This document shows positions 2,285 through 45,993 of a stretch of 64,000 nt of DNA, piece after piece. The stretch is from Megamonas hypermegale (GTDB lineage: Bacteria; Bacillota; Negativicutes; Selenomonadales; Selenomonadaceae), in NCBI RefSeq assembly GCF_900187035.1, contig NZ_LT906446.1, positions 1,488,001 to 1,552,000 of the forward strand, in the 5' to 3' direction. A program made the translations under genes and the position numbers. The notes under the pieces were generated by a model. The model was given only the letters and a program-made list of their open reading frames with translations. It ran no database searches and was not told the DNA's origin. Position 1 is the stretch's first letter. Each line of letters begins with the position of its first letter.

Positions 2285-2320
2285 AACTCTCGACTACACA
2301 GTCGAGAGTTCTTTTATTTT
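2285..2320. terminator. Bidirectional rho-independent terminator
   Basis: An 11-bp perfect stem (2285-2295 with 2300-2310, arms AACTCTCGACT and AGTCGAGAGTT) has a 4-nt loop. It is followed by a T-rich run on the plus strand and preceded by an A-rich run, so it can serve both the activase gene and the convergent autotransporter gene. Confidence 0.9.
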
Positions 2321-5174
2321 AGAACATATATGTTGCTTCTACGCCACCGCGCCAACCATCACGTGCGCCAAAATAATTCTGTACATTTAAATTAAGTATC
2401 CATGGATTATCAATAGACGGTCTATAATTTAATCCAATTTCAACAATACCACTATCACCTTTTAAACTTGGCTTATCGATAACAAAATTATTTACAGAAG
2501 CACTTGCTTCACCATCAAATTCATGCTCCCATGCCAATCCTGCATAATAGCCAACTTTAGCACCGTCATTATAATTAAAACGAGCACCCATGCGCCAACG
2601 CCAAGAATCAATATCACTAAAATTAAGTTTTTCGCCTGTAGAAAGCATCGTCGTATCTCCTTCTTGACGTGTCCACAAAAGTTTTCCATACATATCTAAT
2701 GTTCTGTGTTCATCAATTTGACGCAAATATCCAGCACCAACATGCATACCATAATACATTCCGTCAATATCATAATGAGCTATACGGCCTAAACTATCAT
2801 GCAAATAAGAATTTGTATATTCATTATCTGTACGACCTAAACGCATACTACCTTCTAAATAATAGTGACCAGCATCTGTTCCTGAAAAATCTCTACGAGC
2901 CAATAAGCCACCACCAAAATACGAAGTATCTCCACTACCATGCATTTCTATTCCATTAAAATTATTCTTGGTATCATATGAACCATCACCATATTCAGCA
3001 AATATTCCCATCGTCGTTTCTGTTCCACGTTTCCATGCTGTACCTAATAACATATTAGTACCATCCATATCAACACTAGAACCAGTTTCGTAGTCAATAG
3101 AACCACGTGAAATCTGTGCAAAAATTGCACTATTTTCATTATTTGTTACATCAATAGCAGAATTAATTCCTCTATCTGCAATTAAATCTGCACCTTGTAA
3201 ATTAAATGCTAATCCACCTAAAAAACCTTCCGACAACATTTTACTTTCAGATTTTGCTCTACTACCAGAAACATCAACCACTATACTACCGCCACTACCT
3301 GGATTATCCGGATCTATTGGCTGGTCCGGATCAACTGACGGATTATCTGGATCTATCGGCTGGTCTGGGTCAATTGGTGGGTTATCCGGATCTGTCGGCT
3401 GATCTGGATCAACCGGTGGATTATCCGGATCTGTTGGCTGATCTGGATCAACTGGCGGATTTTCTGGATCTGTCGGTTCCTGTTCACCAATTACCAAATT
3501 TTCACCGTCTTCACTGACCTGAACAGCATTCGTAATATCTGCTTCAATCGTTGAACCTATATTAATTACACCATCAAAGCCTTCGCCTTTTGTAATATTA
3601 TCTGCAGTAAGCGTACCATTTGATTGAATAAGTGTCAATTTAGTACCATCAGCAATTTGTGTACCGCCTGATAAGCCTACGTTATATTTACTATTACTGA
3701 TATTTACATTACCATCAACAGAAAGTAATGGTTCAGTCGGACTAACGCTTGAAATAAAATACAAATCACTATTTTGAGCAGATAAATCACCTATATAATT
3801 AGCAGTAAGATTATTAGAACCATCTACTAATAATTGTTTTCCATCCCAATTTACATCAGCTGTTCCATGATCAAAAGTTGCCCCGCCATATAAAGCCAAT
3901 CCTGCCGAATTTGCAAGTGTATTATTTCCAACATTCAATTTACCTTCACGAACTATGGTCATACCGGAATAATCCGCCGTACCGTTTAAAGTTAATATAC
4001 CTGAACCTGTTTTTGTTAAACTATAAGGAGTTTTATTACCGGGTAAAATAGTGGATCTTTCTTCTATAATATTACGATTTAAATCTTTATCCTGATTAAT
4101 GCCAAAAGTTATACCATTTTGTCCCATATAAACATTAGAATCATTATATTGATGTTCGATAATTCCATTCCAGTTAGTATCGTTAATCATACCGCCTGAT
4201 ATAGATAAATGTCCTAATGTTAATGCATTATTTGCATCATCTAAATTACCATTACCTATTAAATGTAAATTATCAATATACGCTTCACCATTATTTGAAG
4301 ATACAACTAAATCATCATTTTCTAACATTACTGTATCAATATAAACACCCTCATCTGGTGTTTCTTTGTTAGCAGCTATTGTATTATTAAGACCAAGAAT
4401 TGTACCTGTGTTAACATTTAACATATACGTATAAAAATTTAATTTAGAATCACCATATCGATTTAATGAAATACTAGGAGCTGTTATATTATTACCATGA
4501 AAACTAACATTACCACCATTACCACCAGTAGTTACAAATCCAGGTAAAAATATTGACGGTACAAACATTCCTGTTGAAATAAGGAGTGTTTTTTCTGCTC
4601 TTAAACTTCCATGAGTTATAAAATTAACAGAACCACCATCCCCTCCATCACTTACTTTGTTACGATTAGAATAAAAATCTTCTCCAGCATATCCACCTCT
4701 AATTTCAAAATTATCGCACCATAAAAAATTATTATCAGTAGTTACATTAAGATTTCCGCCATCTCCACCTTTACCACCAAGACCGTTTAAATCTGGATTT
4801 TGGGAAGTACCATCACCTCCACCATCTCCTCCAAAACCACCTAATATTAAAACATAATCAGAATTTGATATTGATGATGTATCTATCTCATAATCCAAAT
4901 CGCCACCTTTACCGCCGGCTCCGCCGTTCATGCCGTCTGGTTCTTCACCTTTACCGATATTATAACTGCTTTCTTGTTCATTTCCGCTAACTCCAGCAGC
5001 TTCTCCATCTTTACCTACTTTAGCGTAAATGCCGCCATCACCGCCATTGCCACCGGTTCCGCCATTAATCATAAGTTGTGCATAAGCATCTGATGGTGTT
5101 ACCATTAAACCACTAAAAATTATACTTCCAGTTAATAAACTTACTAAAATTTTAGAACGTTTAGTTTTTTGCAT
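2319..5174 (-). CDS. Autotransporter (type V secretion) with Pro-Asp repeat linker
   Basis: 951 residues. A Sec signal peptide (about residues 1-32, ending near SDAYA) is followed by a Gly-rich segment (about 35-215) and a long beta-helix-like passenger. One autotransporter-associated strand repeat is seen near residues 385-415 (LTKTGSGILTLNGTADYSG). A tandem linker of 14-residue units rich in Pro and Asp lies at about 565-625. A C-terminal beta-barrel domain (about 680-951) ends in the aromatic residue of an outer-membrane protein (ATYMF). It should be exported, insert its barrel in the outer membrane and display the passenger. The start is set by AGGAGGAA at 5182-5189. Passenger function is unknown; adhesion is a family-level guess. 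It is direct evidence for a diderm cell. Confidence 0.9.
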   Translation of the reverse strand: MQKTKRSKILVSLLTGSIIFSGLMVTPSDAYAQLMINGGTGGNGGDGGIYAKVGKDGEAAGVSGNEQESSYNIGKGEEPDGMNGGAGGKGGDLDYEIDTSSISNSDYVLILGGFGGDGGGDGTSQNPDLNGLGGKGGDGGNLNVTTDNNFLWCDNFEIRGGYAGEDFYSNRNKVSDGGDGGSVNFITHGSLRAEKTLLISTGMFVPSIFLPGFVTTGGNGGNVSFHGNNITAPSISLNRYGDSKLNFYTYMLNVNTGTILGLNNTIAANKETPDEGVYIDTVMLENDDLVVSSNNGEAYIDNLHLIGNGNLDDANNALTLGHLSISGGMINDTNWNGIIEHQYNDSNVYMGQNGITFGINQDKDLNRNIIEERSTILPGNKTPYSLTKTGSGILTLNGTADYSGMTIVREGKLNVGNNTLANSAGLALYGGATFDHGTADVNWDGKQLLVDGSNNLTANYIGDLSAQNSDLYFISSVSPTEPLLSVDGNVNISNSKYNVGLSGGTQIADGTKLTLIQSNGTLTADNITKGEGFDGVINIGSTIEADITNAVQVSEDGENLVIGEQEPTDPENPPVDPDQPTDPDNPPVDPDQPTDPDNPPIDPDQPIDPDNPSVDPDQPIDPDNPGSGGSIVVDVSGSRAKSESKMLSEGFLGGLAFNLQGADLIADRGINSAIDVTNNENSAIFAQISRGSIDYETGSSVDMDGTNMLLGTAWKRGTETTMGIFAEYGDGSYDTKNNFNGIEMHGSGDTSYFGGGLLARRDFSGTDAGHYYLEGSMRLGRTDNEYTNSYLHDSLGRIAHYDIDGMYYGMHVGAGYLRQIDEHRTLDMYGKLLWTRQEGDTTMLSTGEKLNFSDIDSWRWRMGARFNYNDGAKVGYYAGLAWEHEFDGEASASVNNFVIDKPSLKGDSGIVEIGLNYRPSIDNPWILNLNVQNYFGARDGWRGGVEATYMF
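3300..3480 (-). repeat. Tandem 42-bp coding repeats (Pro-Asp linker)
   Basis: About four units of 42 bp, each encoding a variant of PPVDPDQPTDPDNP, sit inside the autotransporter gene between passenger and barrel. Units differ by scattered substitutions (T/I, V/I, P/S). The array is in frame and low in charge balance (Asp-rich), as expected for a rigid surface stalk. Slippage could change its length without shifting the frame. Confidence 0.85.
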
Positions 5175-6505: not shown

Positions 6506-6540
6506 GTCAAAAAGTCAAAAATAATTATTGACTTTTTGAC
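6506..6540. promoter_or_regulatory. Perfect inverted repeat (candidate heat-shock operator)
   Basis: 13-bp arms GTCAAAAAGTCAA (6506-6518) and TTGACTTTTTGAC (6528-6540) are perfectly complementary and separated by 9 bp. The right arm overlaps the -35 box of the promoter that follows. Each arm is itself two GTCAAA half sites, 8 bp apart. The same motif recurs at 6679-6692 and, with one change, at 7221-7234. It resembles but does not match CIRCE (same 9-bp spacing, other sequence) or the CtsR box (10-bp repeat spacing). Confidence 0.6.
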
Positions 6541-6555
6541 TAATTCGAGTATAAT
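6528..6555 (+). promoter_or_regulatory. Sigma-70-type promoter upstream of the hsp20 cluster
   Basis: TTGACT at 6528-6533, a 16-bp spacer, and TATAAT at 6550-6555. Transcription should start near 6562, at the foot of the hairpin at 6563-6610. The -35 lies inside the inverted repeat, which suggests repression by occlusion. Confidence 0.75.
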
Positions 6556-6561
6556 AATACT

Positions 6562-6666
6562 TGTAAGAACGATAAGGGCTTACGAAGAGAGCTCTTAGAT
6601 AAGTTCTTACAGATAAATTTTTAATAATAACAAATGCGAACTTAAAAATTTAATGAGTTCGTTTTT
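6562..6666 (+). ncRNA. Structured small RNA or attenuated hsp20 leader
   Basis: Directly after the promoter a long two-part hairpin can form: GTAAGAAC (6563-6570) with GTTCTTAC (6603-6610), and inside it TAAGGGCT (6573-6580) with AGCTCTTA (6590-6597). A second hairpin, CGAACT (6637-6642) with AGTTCG (6656-6661), is followed by five T's and looks like an intrinsic terminator placed before the first hsp20 gene. The unit therefore resembles a free small RNA of about 105 nt, or an attenuator that must be read through under heat shock. No Rfam family is recognised. Confidence 0.5.
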
Positions 6667-6725
6667 CTTAAAATCAAATTTGACTTTTTGACTTTAATGG
6701 TTGTTATAAAATGGAGGTTTGCTTT

Positions 6726-7205
6726 ATGTTTGGTTTAGTTCCATTTGCAAAAAATATTTCTAAAGACGATGATTTCAACAGTTTATTCAATATCTTTGAT
6801 GAACCATTTTTCCATAATACATTGTTACCACTTTCAGCTACAAAATCTTTCAAAGTTGATGTTAAAGATTTAGGTTCTGCTTATGAACTCACTGCTGAAC
6901 TCCCTGGTATTAAAAAAGAAAATATTTCCTTAAATTATGATAAAGGTTATTTGACTATAAAAACAGTTGTAGATAAAAAAGATGAAAAACCTGCCGAAGC
7001 TCAAGGCGAAGAAAATGCAACTGATAAAAAACAACCTGAAAAATATTTACGCCGTGAACGTTATTATGGTGAAATGCAACGTAGCTTCTATATTGATGAC
7101 ATCAATGAAGCCAATATCAAAGCTGCTTACAAAGATGGTATCTTAACTGTTACATTGCCTAAAGTAACTGAAGAACAAACAGCTAAAACTATTACTGTTG
7201 ATTAA
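6726..7205 (+). CDS. Hsp20/alpha-crystallin small heat-shock protein, copy 1
   Basis: 159 residues. The alpha-crystallin domain runs from SFKVDVKDLGSAYELTAELP to the conserved AAYKDGILTVTLPK (family motif A-x-x-x-G-x-L), and the C-terminal ITVD supplies an I-x-V anchor. Such proteins form oligomers that hold unfolding proteins for refolding by DnaK/ClpB. An in-frame ATG at 6711 overlaps the Shine-Dalgarno GGAGG (6713-6717), so the ATG at 6726, 8 bases downstream, is chosen. It is the first of three tandem paralogues with nearly identical ribosome sites and first codons. Confidence 0.93.
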   Translation: MFGLVPFAKNISKDDDFNSLFNIFDEPFFHNTLLPLSATKSFKVDVKDLGSAYELTAELPGIKKENISLNYDKGYLTIKTVVDKKDEKPAEAQGEENATDKKQPEKYLRRERYYGEMQRSFYIDDINEANIKAAYKDGILTVTLPKVTEEQTAKTITVD

Positions 7206-7269
7206 TTTTTATAAATTCACTTTGACTTTTTGATTTTTAAATCTGTTAAATATATTGGAGGTTTGCTCT

Positions 7270-7731
7270 ATGTTTGGTTTAGTTCCATTCAATTTTAATA
7301 ATCCTGCTAATAAAGAAGACAATAAAATTAATTCTATTTTCGATATTTTTGATGAACCATTTTTCCAGAATGCTTTTGCTCCAGTACAGAGCGCTAATTC
7401 CTTTAAAGTAGATGTTAAAGATTTAGGTTCTGCTTATGAACTGACTGCTGAACTTCCTGGCATCAAAAAAGAAAATATTTCCTTAAATTATGATAAAGAT
7501 TATTTGACTATAAAAACTACTGTAGATAAAGAAGAAAAATCTGATGACACTGCAAAAGAAACTGCTAAATATTTACGCCGTGAACGTTATTATGGCGAAA
7601 TGCAACGTAGCTTCTATATCGGCGATATCGACAGCGACAATATCAAAGCTTCTTATAAAGATGGCGTTTTAACTGTTACATTGCCTAAAGCTACAAAGAA
7701 AGAAACAGCAACTACTATCAATGTTGATTGA
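7270..7731 (+). CDS. Hsp20/alpha-crystallin small heat-shock protein, copy 2
   Basis: 153 residues, closest to copy 1: the stretch FKVDVKDLGSAYELTAELPG is identical in both, as is LRRERYYGEMQRSFYI. The A-x-x-x-G-x-L motif is ASYKDGVLTV and the C-terminal anchor is INVD. The linker between the strands of the crystallin domain is shorter than in copy 1. The ATG at 7270 lies 8 bases after GGAGG; an in-frame TTG at 7255 overlaps that site and is rejected. The TTTGACTTTTTGAT motif (7221-7234) in the short upstream gap may give this gene its own control. Confidence 0.93.
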   Translation: MFGLVPFNFNNPANKEDNKINSIFDIFDEPFFQNAFAPVQSANSFKVDVKDLGSAYELTAELPGIKKENISLNYDKDYLTIKTTVDKEEKSDDTAKETAKYLRRERYYGEMQRSFYIGDIDSDNIKASYKDGVLTVTLPKATKKETATTINVD

Positions 7732-7792: not shown

Positions 7793-8242
7793 ATGTTTGG
7801 TTTAGTTCCTTTCATGTTTAATAATCCTATGAATAAAGAAGAAAATAAATTTCCATCTGTTTTTGATATGTTTAATGAACCATTTTTCCAGAATGCTTTT
7901 GCACCAATGCAGAATATGAACACATTTAAAGTTGATGTAAAAGATAACGGCGATAGTTATGAACTTACTGCCGAACTTCCTGGAACTAAAAAAGAAGATA
8001 TCCAGCTTGATTACCAAAACGATTATTTAACTATCAAAGCTGTTATGAATAAAGAAACTGATAATAGTGATGAACAGCAAAATTATATTTGCAAAGAACG
8101 TTATTATGGCACAATGCAGAGAAGCTTTTATGTAGGTCAGATAGATAAAGCTAATGCTAAAGCTGAATATACTGACGGCGTTCTTAAAATTCTCTTACCA
8201 AAGACCACTATAACCTCCTCCAGTCAAATCACTATTGACTGA
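7793..8242 (+). CDS. Hsp20/alpha-crystallin small heat-shock protein, copy 3
   Basis: 149 residues, the most diverged of the three: FKVDVKDNGDSYELTAELPG, then RYYGTMQRSFYVG, the motif AEYTDGVLKILLPK and the anchor ITID. It starts at ATG 7793, 8 bases after GGAGG (7780-7784). The upstream gap lacks the TTGACTTTTTGAC motif seen before copies 1 and 2, so it is probably read from their transcript. A strong terminator follows. Different N-termini suggest the three may form mixed oligomers (inference). Confidence 0.92.
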   Translation: MFGLVPFMFNNPMNKEENKFPSVFDMFNEPFFQNAFAPMQNMNTFKVDVKDNGDSYELTAELPGTKKEDIQLDYQNDYLTIKAVMNKETDNSDEQQNYICKERYYGTMQRSFYVGQIDKANAKAEYTDGVLKILLPKTTITSSSQITID

Positions 8243-8263: not shown

Positions 8264-8307
8264 GCCCGCCTATACTAGCCTAATTGCCTGTATAAGCGGG
8301 CGTTTTT
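8264..8307. terminator. Bidirectional terminator between hsp20 copy 3 and flavodoxin
   Basis: GCCCGC (8264-8269) pairs with GCGGGC (8296-8301), extended by TATAC with GTATA. A T run follows on the plus strand, and an A run on the left serves the convergent minus-strand gene. Confidence 0.85.
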
Positions 8308-36937: not shown

Positions 36938-37036
36938 GTTATTTTCCTCCTTGTCGCCCAGATTCTCGACCCGGACAATTTCTCCACGCCAGTTCCCTTA
37001 CGCGAGGTAAGCAATCTGCCGCGTCATCGCATTTTA
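36938..37036 (-). promoter_or_regulatory. Leader of the S10 operon
   Basis: The gap between the tuf terminator and rpsJ is more GC-rich than other gaps. It can pair TTGTC with GACAA around a GC-rich loop just before the ribosome site. Its position suits an S10 leader, known in several phyla to carry L4-mediated control. No convincing -35/-10 was found, so initiation may depend on read-through or a poorly matched promoter. Confidence 0.3.
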
Positions 37037-42989: not shown

Positions 42990-43140
42990 CCCCTCTCAAG
43001 TGGATATATTTATTACGAAATCTAAAAACGGTCTCTAGCCGACGACCAGAGACCGCAATTTTCATGCCTTGCCAAGTATCTGACCTCGGCAGGCTATTAT
43101 TATGTTGCCGTAGCAACACCTGCTGTCTTAAGTCGCTTTA
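42990..43140 (-). ncRNA. L10 leader (ribosomal protein autoregulatory RNA) with attenuator
   Basis: The mRNA segment before rplJ carries CCTGCCGAGG (complement of 43084-43093) and the GC-rich flanking helices typical of the L10 leader. A terminator hairpin CGGTCTCT/AGAGACCG (43029-43036 with 43048-43055) followed by five T's in the RNA supplies attenuation. Binding of L10(L12)4 is family knowledge. Confidence 0.8.
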
Positions 43141-43158
43141 TCAAATAAATATTTAATT

Positions 43159-45637: not shown

Positions 45638-45715
45638 TTGGTGGCGGCGCAGAGATTCGAACTCCGGACACTGCGGGTATGAACCGCATGCTCTAGCCAA
45701 CTGAGCTACGCCGCC
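45638..45715 (-). tRNA. tRNA-Met (CAT), elongator
   Basis: Acceptor GGCGGCG pairs with CGCCGCC, the anticodon loop TTCATAC lies between TGCGG and CCGCA, the T-loop is GTTCGAATC, and CCA is encoded. The 1-72 pair is intact, so it is not the initiator. Last of four tRNAs. Confidence 0.93.
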
Positions 45716-45734
45716 ATGTTATGATATTTTATAA

Positions 45735-45810
45735 TGGAGCTGATGACCGGGATTGAACCGGTGACCTTATCCTTACCAAGGATACGCTCTGCCGACTGAG
45801 CTACATCAGC
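45735..45810 (-). tRNA. tRNA-Thr (GGT)
   Basis: Acceptor GCTGATG pairs with CATCAGC; anticodon loop TTGGTAA between TATCC and GGATA; TTCAATCC T-loop; CCA encoded. Confidence 0.94.
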
Positions 45811-45824
45811 AGAAATCGGCTTTT

Positions 45825-45900
45825 TGGTTGCGGGGAGAGGACTTGAACCTCTGGCCTTCGGGTTATGAGCCCGACGAGCTACCAACTGCTCCACCCCGCG
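45825..45900 (-). tRNA. Initiator tRNA-fMet (CAT)
   Basis: Anticodon loop CTCATAA sits on the three G:C pairs TCGGG/CCCGA, and position 1 is C opposite A72, the two hallmarks of the initiator. CCA is encoded. Confidence 0.94.
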
Positions 45901-45917
45901 ATTTGGTAAAGATTTTA

Positions 45918-45993
45918 TGGAGCTGGCGAGAGGAATCGAACCCCCAACCTGCTGATTACAAGTCAGCTGCTCTGCCAATTGAGCTACACCAGC
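45918..45993 (-). tRNA. tRNA-Thr (TGT)
   Basis: Acceptor GCTGGTG/CGCCAGC (one G-U type pair), anticodon loop CTTGTAA between CTGA and TCAG, CCA encoded. First of the cluster. Confidence 0.94.

Follow-up and report, generated by a model that had tools for sequence, protein, structure and literature searches.

A predicted CtsR operator with half-sites 8 bp apart at hsp20 and other heat-shock promoters of the Negativicutes

The repeated motif that accompanies three tandem hsp20 genes in the window (the whole 64-kb stretch of Megamonas hypermegale DNA that was analysed) is very probably, judging from sequence comparison, a class-specific form of the CtsR operator: a direct repeat of GTCAA(A) with a period of 8 bp (GTCAA-N3-GTCAA), as against 10 bp elsewhere in the Bacillota. 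The positions of the sites, their enrichment, their gene context, their conservation and the class-wide match of 8-bp operators to a distinct CtsR clade were all observed directly. From the established biology of CtsR it would follow that CtsR binds these sites and represses, and that the repression is lifted by heat. The regulon is the known CtsR regulon; the spacing is not the described one.

A scan of the window for TTGACTTTTTGAC returned three exact copies and, between hsp20-1 and hsp20-2, one copy with a single mismatch (Table 1). The first two exact copies lie on opposite strands and are exact reverse complements separated by 9 bp, and the copy on the + strand contains the −35 hexamer of a sigma-A-like promoter (TTGACT, 16 bp, TATAAT) that agrees with the consensus at 11 of 12 positions. 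The perfect 13-9-13 inverted repeat over the −35, on which the original prediction was built, is thus present, as are the direct copies that it placed before the first two hsp20 genes but not the third: upstream of hsp20-3 the window scan found nothing within two mismatches of the motif. Whereas the 64 kb hold three exact copies, each of 100 dinucleotide shuffles held none. With two mismatches allowed there were seven matches in the window, and at least seven were reached in 18 of the 100 shuffles; because this number is unremarkable, only the exact and near-exact copies carry weight. The genes themselves belong to the HSP20 family, hsp20-1 by its match to PF00011 and hsp20-2 and hsp20-3 by their identity to hsp20-1 (72% and 53%). 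A plasmid search with the hsp20 region gave no match.

Table 1. Features of the hsp20 operon and its leader (positions in the window)
Feature	Position	Strand	Basis or remark
Predicted CtsR operator, the more upstream of the two that face each other	6506..6518	-	GTCAAAAAGTCAA on the + strand; exact motif copy; two half-sites, 8-bp period
Predicted CtsR operator holding the -35	6528..6540	+	TTGACTTTTTGAC; two half-sites, 8-bp period; same layout at 27 of 28 family hsp20 promoters
-35 hexamer TTGACT of the hsp20 promoter	6528..6533	+	Promoter scan
-10 hexamer TATAAT of the hsp20 promoter	6550..6555	+	Promoter scan
Predicted stem-loop in the hsp20 leader	6561..6612	+	Leader fold against shuffles, z -5.35 and -4.61
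Predicted second leader hairpin	6636..6662	+	Stem region directly followed by TTTTTCTT; resembles a weak terminator; absent from the terminator scan
Internal CtsR-type site in the leader, just 5' of hsp20-1	6680..6692	+	Exact motif copy
hsp20-1	6726..7205	+	Open reading frame, PF00011
Internal CtsR-type site between hsp20-1 and hsp20-2	7222..7234	+	Motif scan, one mismatch
hsp20-2	7270..7731	+	Open reading frame, identity to hsp20-1
hsp20-3, without the motif upstream	7793..8242	+	Open reading frame, identity to hsp20-1
Terminator-like stem-loop after the operon	8285..8302	+	Terminator scan

Both internal sites, 6680 and 7222, are downstream of the promoter and directly 5' of the Shine-Dalgarno sequences of hsp20-1 and hsp20-2, respectively. 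Inspection rejected them as promoters of these two genes, since any −10 at a tolerable spacing would place the start inside the Shine-Dalgarno sequence, and the promoter scan lists none there. They probably serve as auxiliary sites or as roadblocks, or else gene duplication brought them along. In a second genome of the genus (G016), site 6680 is identical within an otherwise diverged leader, which speaks for some use; at a guess, it might serve in looping or as a roadblock. The copy at 7222 may have arisen merely as a side effect of the gene duplication. We also observed that a prophage of ~45 kb is inserted at the hsp20 promoter of G016 (about 1444.7-1490.4 kb; L363, L365, L366, L367). It is flanked by a 148-bp direct repeat (98.6% identical) holding both predicted CtsR operators, the −35 and the −10, so that the promoter is restored before hsp20, and a gene named by reading as an integrase adjoins the right repeat. 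A phage source for the repeated promoter was rejected, with no exact match in viral contigs and none in phage records. Elsewhere in the window, a gene for a large protein at 2319-5174 (−) has a proline- and aspartate-rich repeat stretch of the DPDQPTDPDNPPV type and an end that, by reading only, resembles an autotransporter barrel; Rfam assigns S10-Clostridia and L10 ribosomal-protein leaders and a cluster of four tRNAs to 36951-37035, 43014-43150 and 45642-45993 (−).

Across the genome of the window (a single contig of 2.23 Mb), we searched for the motif as spaced half-sites, GTCAA-WWW-GTCAA, that is, GTCAAWWWGTCAA. Exact matches numbered nine, and all nine are intergenic, lying upstream of hsp20 (three), clpB (two), ctsR-mcsA-mcsB, htpG, a Bax1-like gene and a zinc-ribbon gene. 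Together with a one-mismatch copy at hrcA, beside a CIRCE-like element, these sites bear out the expectation that the motif would recur at chaperone genes. The 10-bp counterpart of the pattern had two exact matches in the genome, both within genes. When one mismatch was allowed, 42 matches to the 8-bp pattern stood against 27 to the reversed pattern; as this enrichment is mild, and as the one-mismatch sites whose surroundings were read lie mostly within genes, we trust only exact sites or near-exact sites in promoters. The genome encodes CtsR, with PF05848 and PF17727 over their cut-offs and a relationship to the solved CtsR 3h0d. Sites at ctsR, clp and chaperone genes define a CtsR regulon, and here they were found at ctsR-mcsA-mcsB, clpB, htpG and hsp20; autoregulation would require one directly ahead of ctsR.

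Two of the genes with exact sites call for a separate remark. One, which has an exact CtsR-type site in each of the two genomes of the genus (L002 at 98297; L355 in G016), encodes a small protein with an N-terminal zinc-ribbon-like pair of CxxC motifs. In the window's genome it adjoins yajQ, which lies behind it, and Pfam gives the protein no family above the cut-off; it is a possible new heat-shock protein. The other encodes a Bax1-like membrane protein (PF12811; L012, 894885), the exact CtsR-type site lying just 3' of a −10-like TATAAT.

The half-site of the motif is that of CtsR, GTCAAA, as had been recognized from the start. The published CtsR box reads A/GGTCAAA NAN A/GGTCAAA, with half-sites 10 bp apart, in the available text of PMC12634643. 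At 6506-6519 we found the direct repeat of this half-site as GTCAAAAAGTCAAA, with T in place of A/G before the first half-site, but the 10-bp spacing given by the NAN spacer is replaced at hsp20 by one of 8 bp. The earlier remark that the 8-bp period differs from the published box therefore stands.

We then asked how far the motif is conserved upstream of hsp20. Of the 54 genomes of the family with a match, 30 hsp20 loci were taken, and 28 were anchored on the start codon (in L217 and L227 it was not located). An exact TTGAC-N3-TTGAC pair was present in 27 of the 28, mostly at the same position before TATAAT, and none had a 10-bp pair; the conservation in relatives on which the original prediction depended is thereby confirmed. 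In ten Negativicutes genomes the exact 8-bp pattern occurred 45 times and the reversed pattern five times, as against four and 14 times in ten other genomes. The surroundings were read for 42 of the 45 sites, the remaining three being placed by coordinates at clpB, ctsR and hsp20. CtsR-type target genes accounted for 31 of the 42: clpB (nine), hsp20 (nine), ctsR (five), htpG (three), hrcA (three), dnaK (one, named by reading the N-terminus) and the zinc-ribbon gene (one). A further nine lay within unrelated genes (five of them in G146) and two at a duplicated hsp20 promoter. None of the four exact sites in the ten outgroup genomes was at these CtsR-type targets.

The spacing was then compared across lineages in the ~150 bp before ctsR, counting GTCAA pairs by period and tolerating no more than one mismatch per pair. 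Among the 30 best-scoring of 121 ctsR matches in 120 genomes of the order, a period of 8 was found in 27 (19 exact) and a period of 10 in none. For the class we used 59 of 60 loci (in L128 CtsR was not parsed), and for the rest of the phylum 74 of 77 matches, three (G000, G001 and G122) belonging to the class. Period 8 occurred in 53 of the 59 class loci (38 exact) and in 10 of the 74 others (3 exact), whereas period 10 occurred in 9 of the 59 (7 exact) and in 60 of the 74 (39 exact). Taken locus by locus, 45 class loci had only the 8-bp spacing, one only the 10-bp spacing, eight both and five neither; in the outgroup the corresponding numbers were 1, 51, 9 and 13. That the sampled class is the Negativicutes rests on a parallel set of named genomes, including Selenomonas, Pectinatus, Propionispira, Mitsuokella, Anaerovibrio, Schwartzia, Sporomusa, Pelosinus and Veillonella, in which period 8 was found in 21 of 22 loci and period 10 in two. 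In 58 other named Bacillota (Bacillus, Paenibacillus and others), period 8 was found in one and period 10 in 46; a 6-bp pair was also common there (44 of 58). By the nearest named relatives of its CtsR, the organism of the window falls in the Selenomonadaceae. Veillonella and a relative (L262, L263, L136) differ from the rest of the class in having hardly any CtsR site, or none, immediately upstream of ctsR, and Veillonella L263 has neither spacing.

Outgroup ctsR promoters often carry three half-sites in a 10+8 array (L086, L106, L140, L144, L158, L162, L171), in which the third half-site, 8 bp from the 10-bp pair, is often mismatched (e.g., L086, L106, L140, L171). Such third half-sites may be the source of the 8-bp pair. 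Some Negativicutes (L061 and Sporomusa L254) retain both periods in one array, and a simple path would be one in which the class retained the 8-bp neighbour and lost the 10-bp partner.

The repressor differs along the same line. CtsR was present in all 60 class genomes, and in a quick tree of 146 rows, which drew on 14 of the 80 named ctsR loci (L276 fell out), the CtsR proteins of the class formed one side of a branch with a support of 99. For the loci with only the 8-bp or only the 10-bp spacing, the tree required three changes. The alignment column that best separated the two groups was the second glycine of the tetraglycine loop in the wing: in the class (n = 59) this position was Ser in 38, Leu in 19, Thr in one and Gly in none, whereas it was Gly in 68 of the 74 others. 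No class protein had an intact loop (0 of 59), and in the window's genome it reads G-L-G-G. Moreover, an Asn of the recognition helix is replaced in the class by Ser or Thr, and the C-terminal domain has a gap of about four residues in 59 of 59. We infer that these class-specific changes in the recognition helix, the wing and the dimerisation domain belong to the changed register of the half-sites. Published work assigns thermosensing to the tetraglycine loop and places it in a region that is conserved in every Gram-positive homologue (available text of PMC5506225), and a G65S change in Bacillus subtilis CtsR is cited as suppressing heat inactivation (available text of PMC6305308). In the Bacillus homologue L318, which starts VGHN, the first loop glycine is residue 64, so the position changed in the class aligns with 65; the numbering of L318 would presumably equal that of B. 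subtilis CtsR.

Against this background, it is very unlikely that a non-CtsR repressor, so far undescribed, reads GTCAA-N3-GTCAA in the Negativicutes and took over the targets of CtsR. Such a protein would account for a period that differs from the published box (PMC12634643), and the binding of CtsR is itself a prediction. However, the half-site is that of CtsR, known targets of CtsR carry the sites, as does ctsR itself, the protein is encoded throughout the class, and a class-specific form of it goes with the class-specific spacing.

We consider it very unlikely that the leader is a fourU-like RNA thermometer and that the repeats matter as RNA. The leader (6557-6725) does fold far better than its shuffles (z −5.35), and GGAGG is paired with UUUUU in the predicted fold, but much of the stability comes from two hairpins in which the Shine-Dalgarno sequence takes no part. 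Sequestration of that sequence beyond chance, conserved in relatives, was not found when 28 family leaders were compared with shuffles: it was not less accessible (0.416 versus 0.440 in shuffles, mean rank 0.43), and 17% of 40 shuffles matched the window's leader in this respect. No Rfam family reached the gathering score in the leader, and even at a low threshold Rfam gave no match there that came near a gathering score. A thermometer would also leave the motif at the promoters of other genes unexplained. As an observation in its own right, the leader is strongly structured: it holds a long stem-loop and another hairpin with a T-rich run behind it, and might cause attenuation between the promoter and the internal CtsR-type site.

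The consensus arms of CIRCE, the HrcA operator, are TTAGCACTC and GAGTGCTAA. That the inverted repeat is a variant CIRCE read by HrcA can practically be dismissed: it shares the 9-bp gap, the inverted layout (here 13-9-13) and a heat-shock promoter with CIRCE, but its arms at 6506-6540 are unrelated to TTAGCACTC and GAGTGCTAA, most motif sites are not inverted pairs, and CIRCE elements occur separately beside the motif, one with these arms and the 9-bp gap at htpG and a near form at hrcA. The likeness to CIRCE in the original prediction was thus correct as to the gap, but is a coincidence.

We therefore return to CtsR. On the model of its known action, CtsR bound to the two facing operators would cover the −35 and exclude RNA polymerase, and its release by heat, or by McsB and ClpC, would allow transcription of the three hsp20 genes. 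It is also possible, although we put this forward tentatively and with more doubt than belief, that CtsR shifted register early in the Negativicutes together with its whole regulon, that the wing thermosensor lost its second glycine (to Ser or Leu) and that heat relief came to use another route. The shifted dimer would then contact half-sites 8 bp apart; compared with other Bacillota, their separation would be shorter by 2 bp and about 70 degrees of helix turn. With the second loop glycine lost in the class, relief under such a register shift would not proceed through the intrinsic tetraglycine switch; in its place, McsB and ClpC alone, for example, or a different melting of the protein might serve.

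Much of this agrees with CtsR control in B. subtilis and other Bacillota, where a repressor of the same family is found with GTCAAA direct-repeat half-sites at ctsR, clp and small heat-shock genes, at their core promoters. What differs is the period, 8 rather than 10 across the class, and the CtsR protein, which lacks the tetraglycine loop, has an altered recognition helix and shows a gap in its C-terminal domain. CtsR has been reported to control the small heat-shock genes hsp1 of Lactobacillus plantarum and hsp18 of both Oenococcus oeni and Clostridium acetobutylicum, and to have sites at hrcA as well (available text of PMC3842655, PMC6305308 and PMC3828012). Like hsp1 and hsp18, the window has an hsp20-family gene under a CtsR site, here a predicted one, but it has three such genes in tandem, facing operators with an 8-bp period and extra sites in the transcribed region. 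With these precedents the regulon is already known; the original prediction of an undescribed heat-shock regulon holds as to heat shock but not as to being undescribed, since the targets are known CtsR targets, ctsR among them, and CtsR is encoded. In open-licence PMC papers we found no description of an 8-bp CtsR site, and nothing on CtsR in Negativicutes or Selenomonas or on the spacing or spacer of the CtsR operator. In one Veillonella paper, the single mention of CtsR concerns expression.

The feature is real and well conserved, and what looks new is the half-site register of the predicted operator of Negativicutes CtsR, together with the co-occurring change in the heat-sensing loop. A search with the standard 10-bp CtsR motif would overlook a large part of the heat-shock regulon in a class of gut, rumen and oral bacteria, a part that the 8-bp form recovers. 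Moreover, a natural change of register common to a repressor and its operators would provide a clean case for studying their coevolution.
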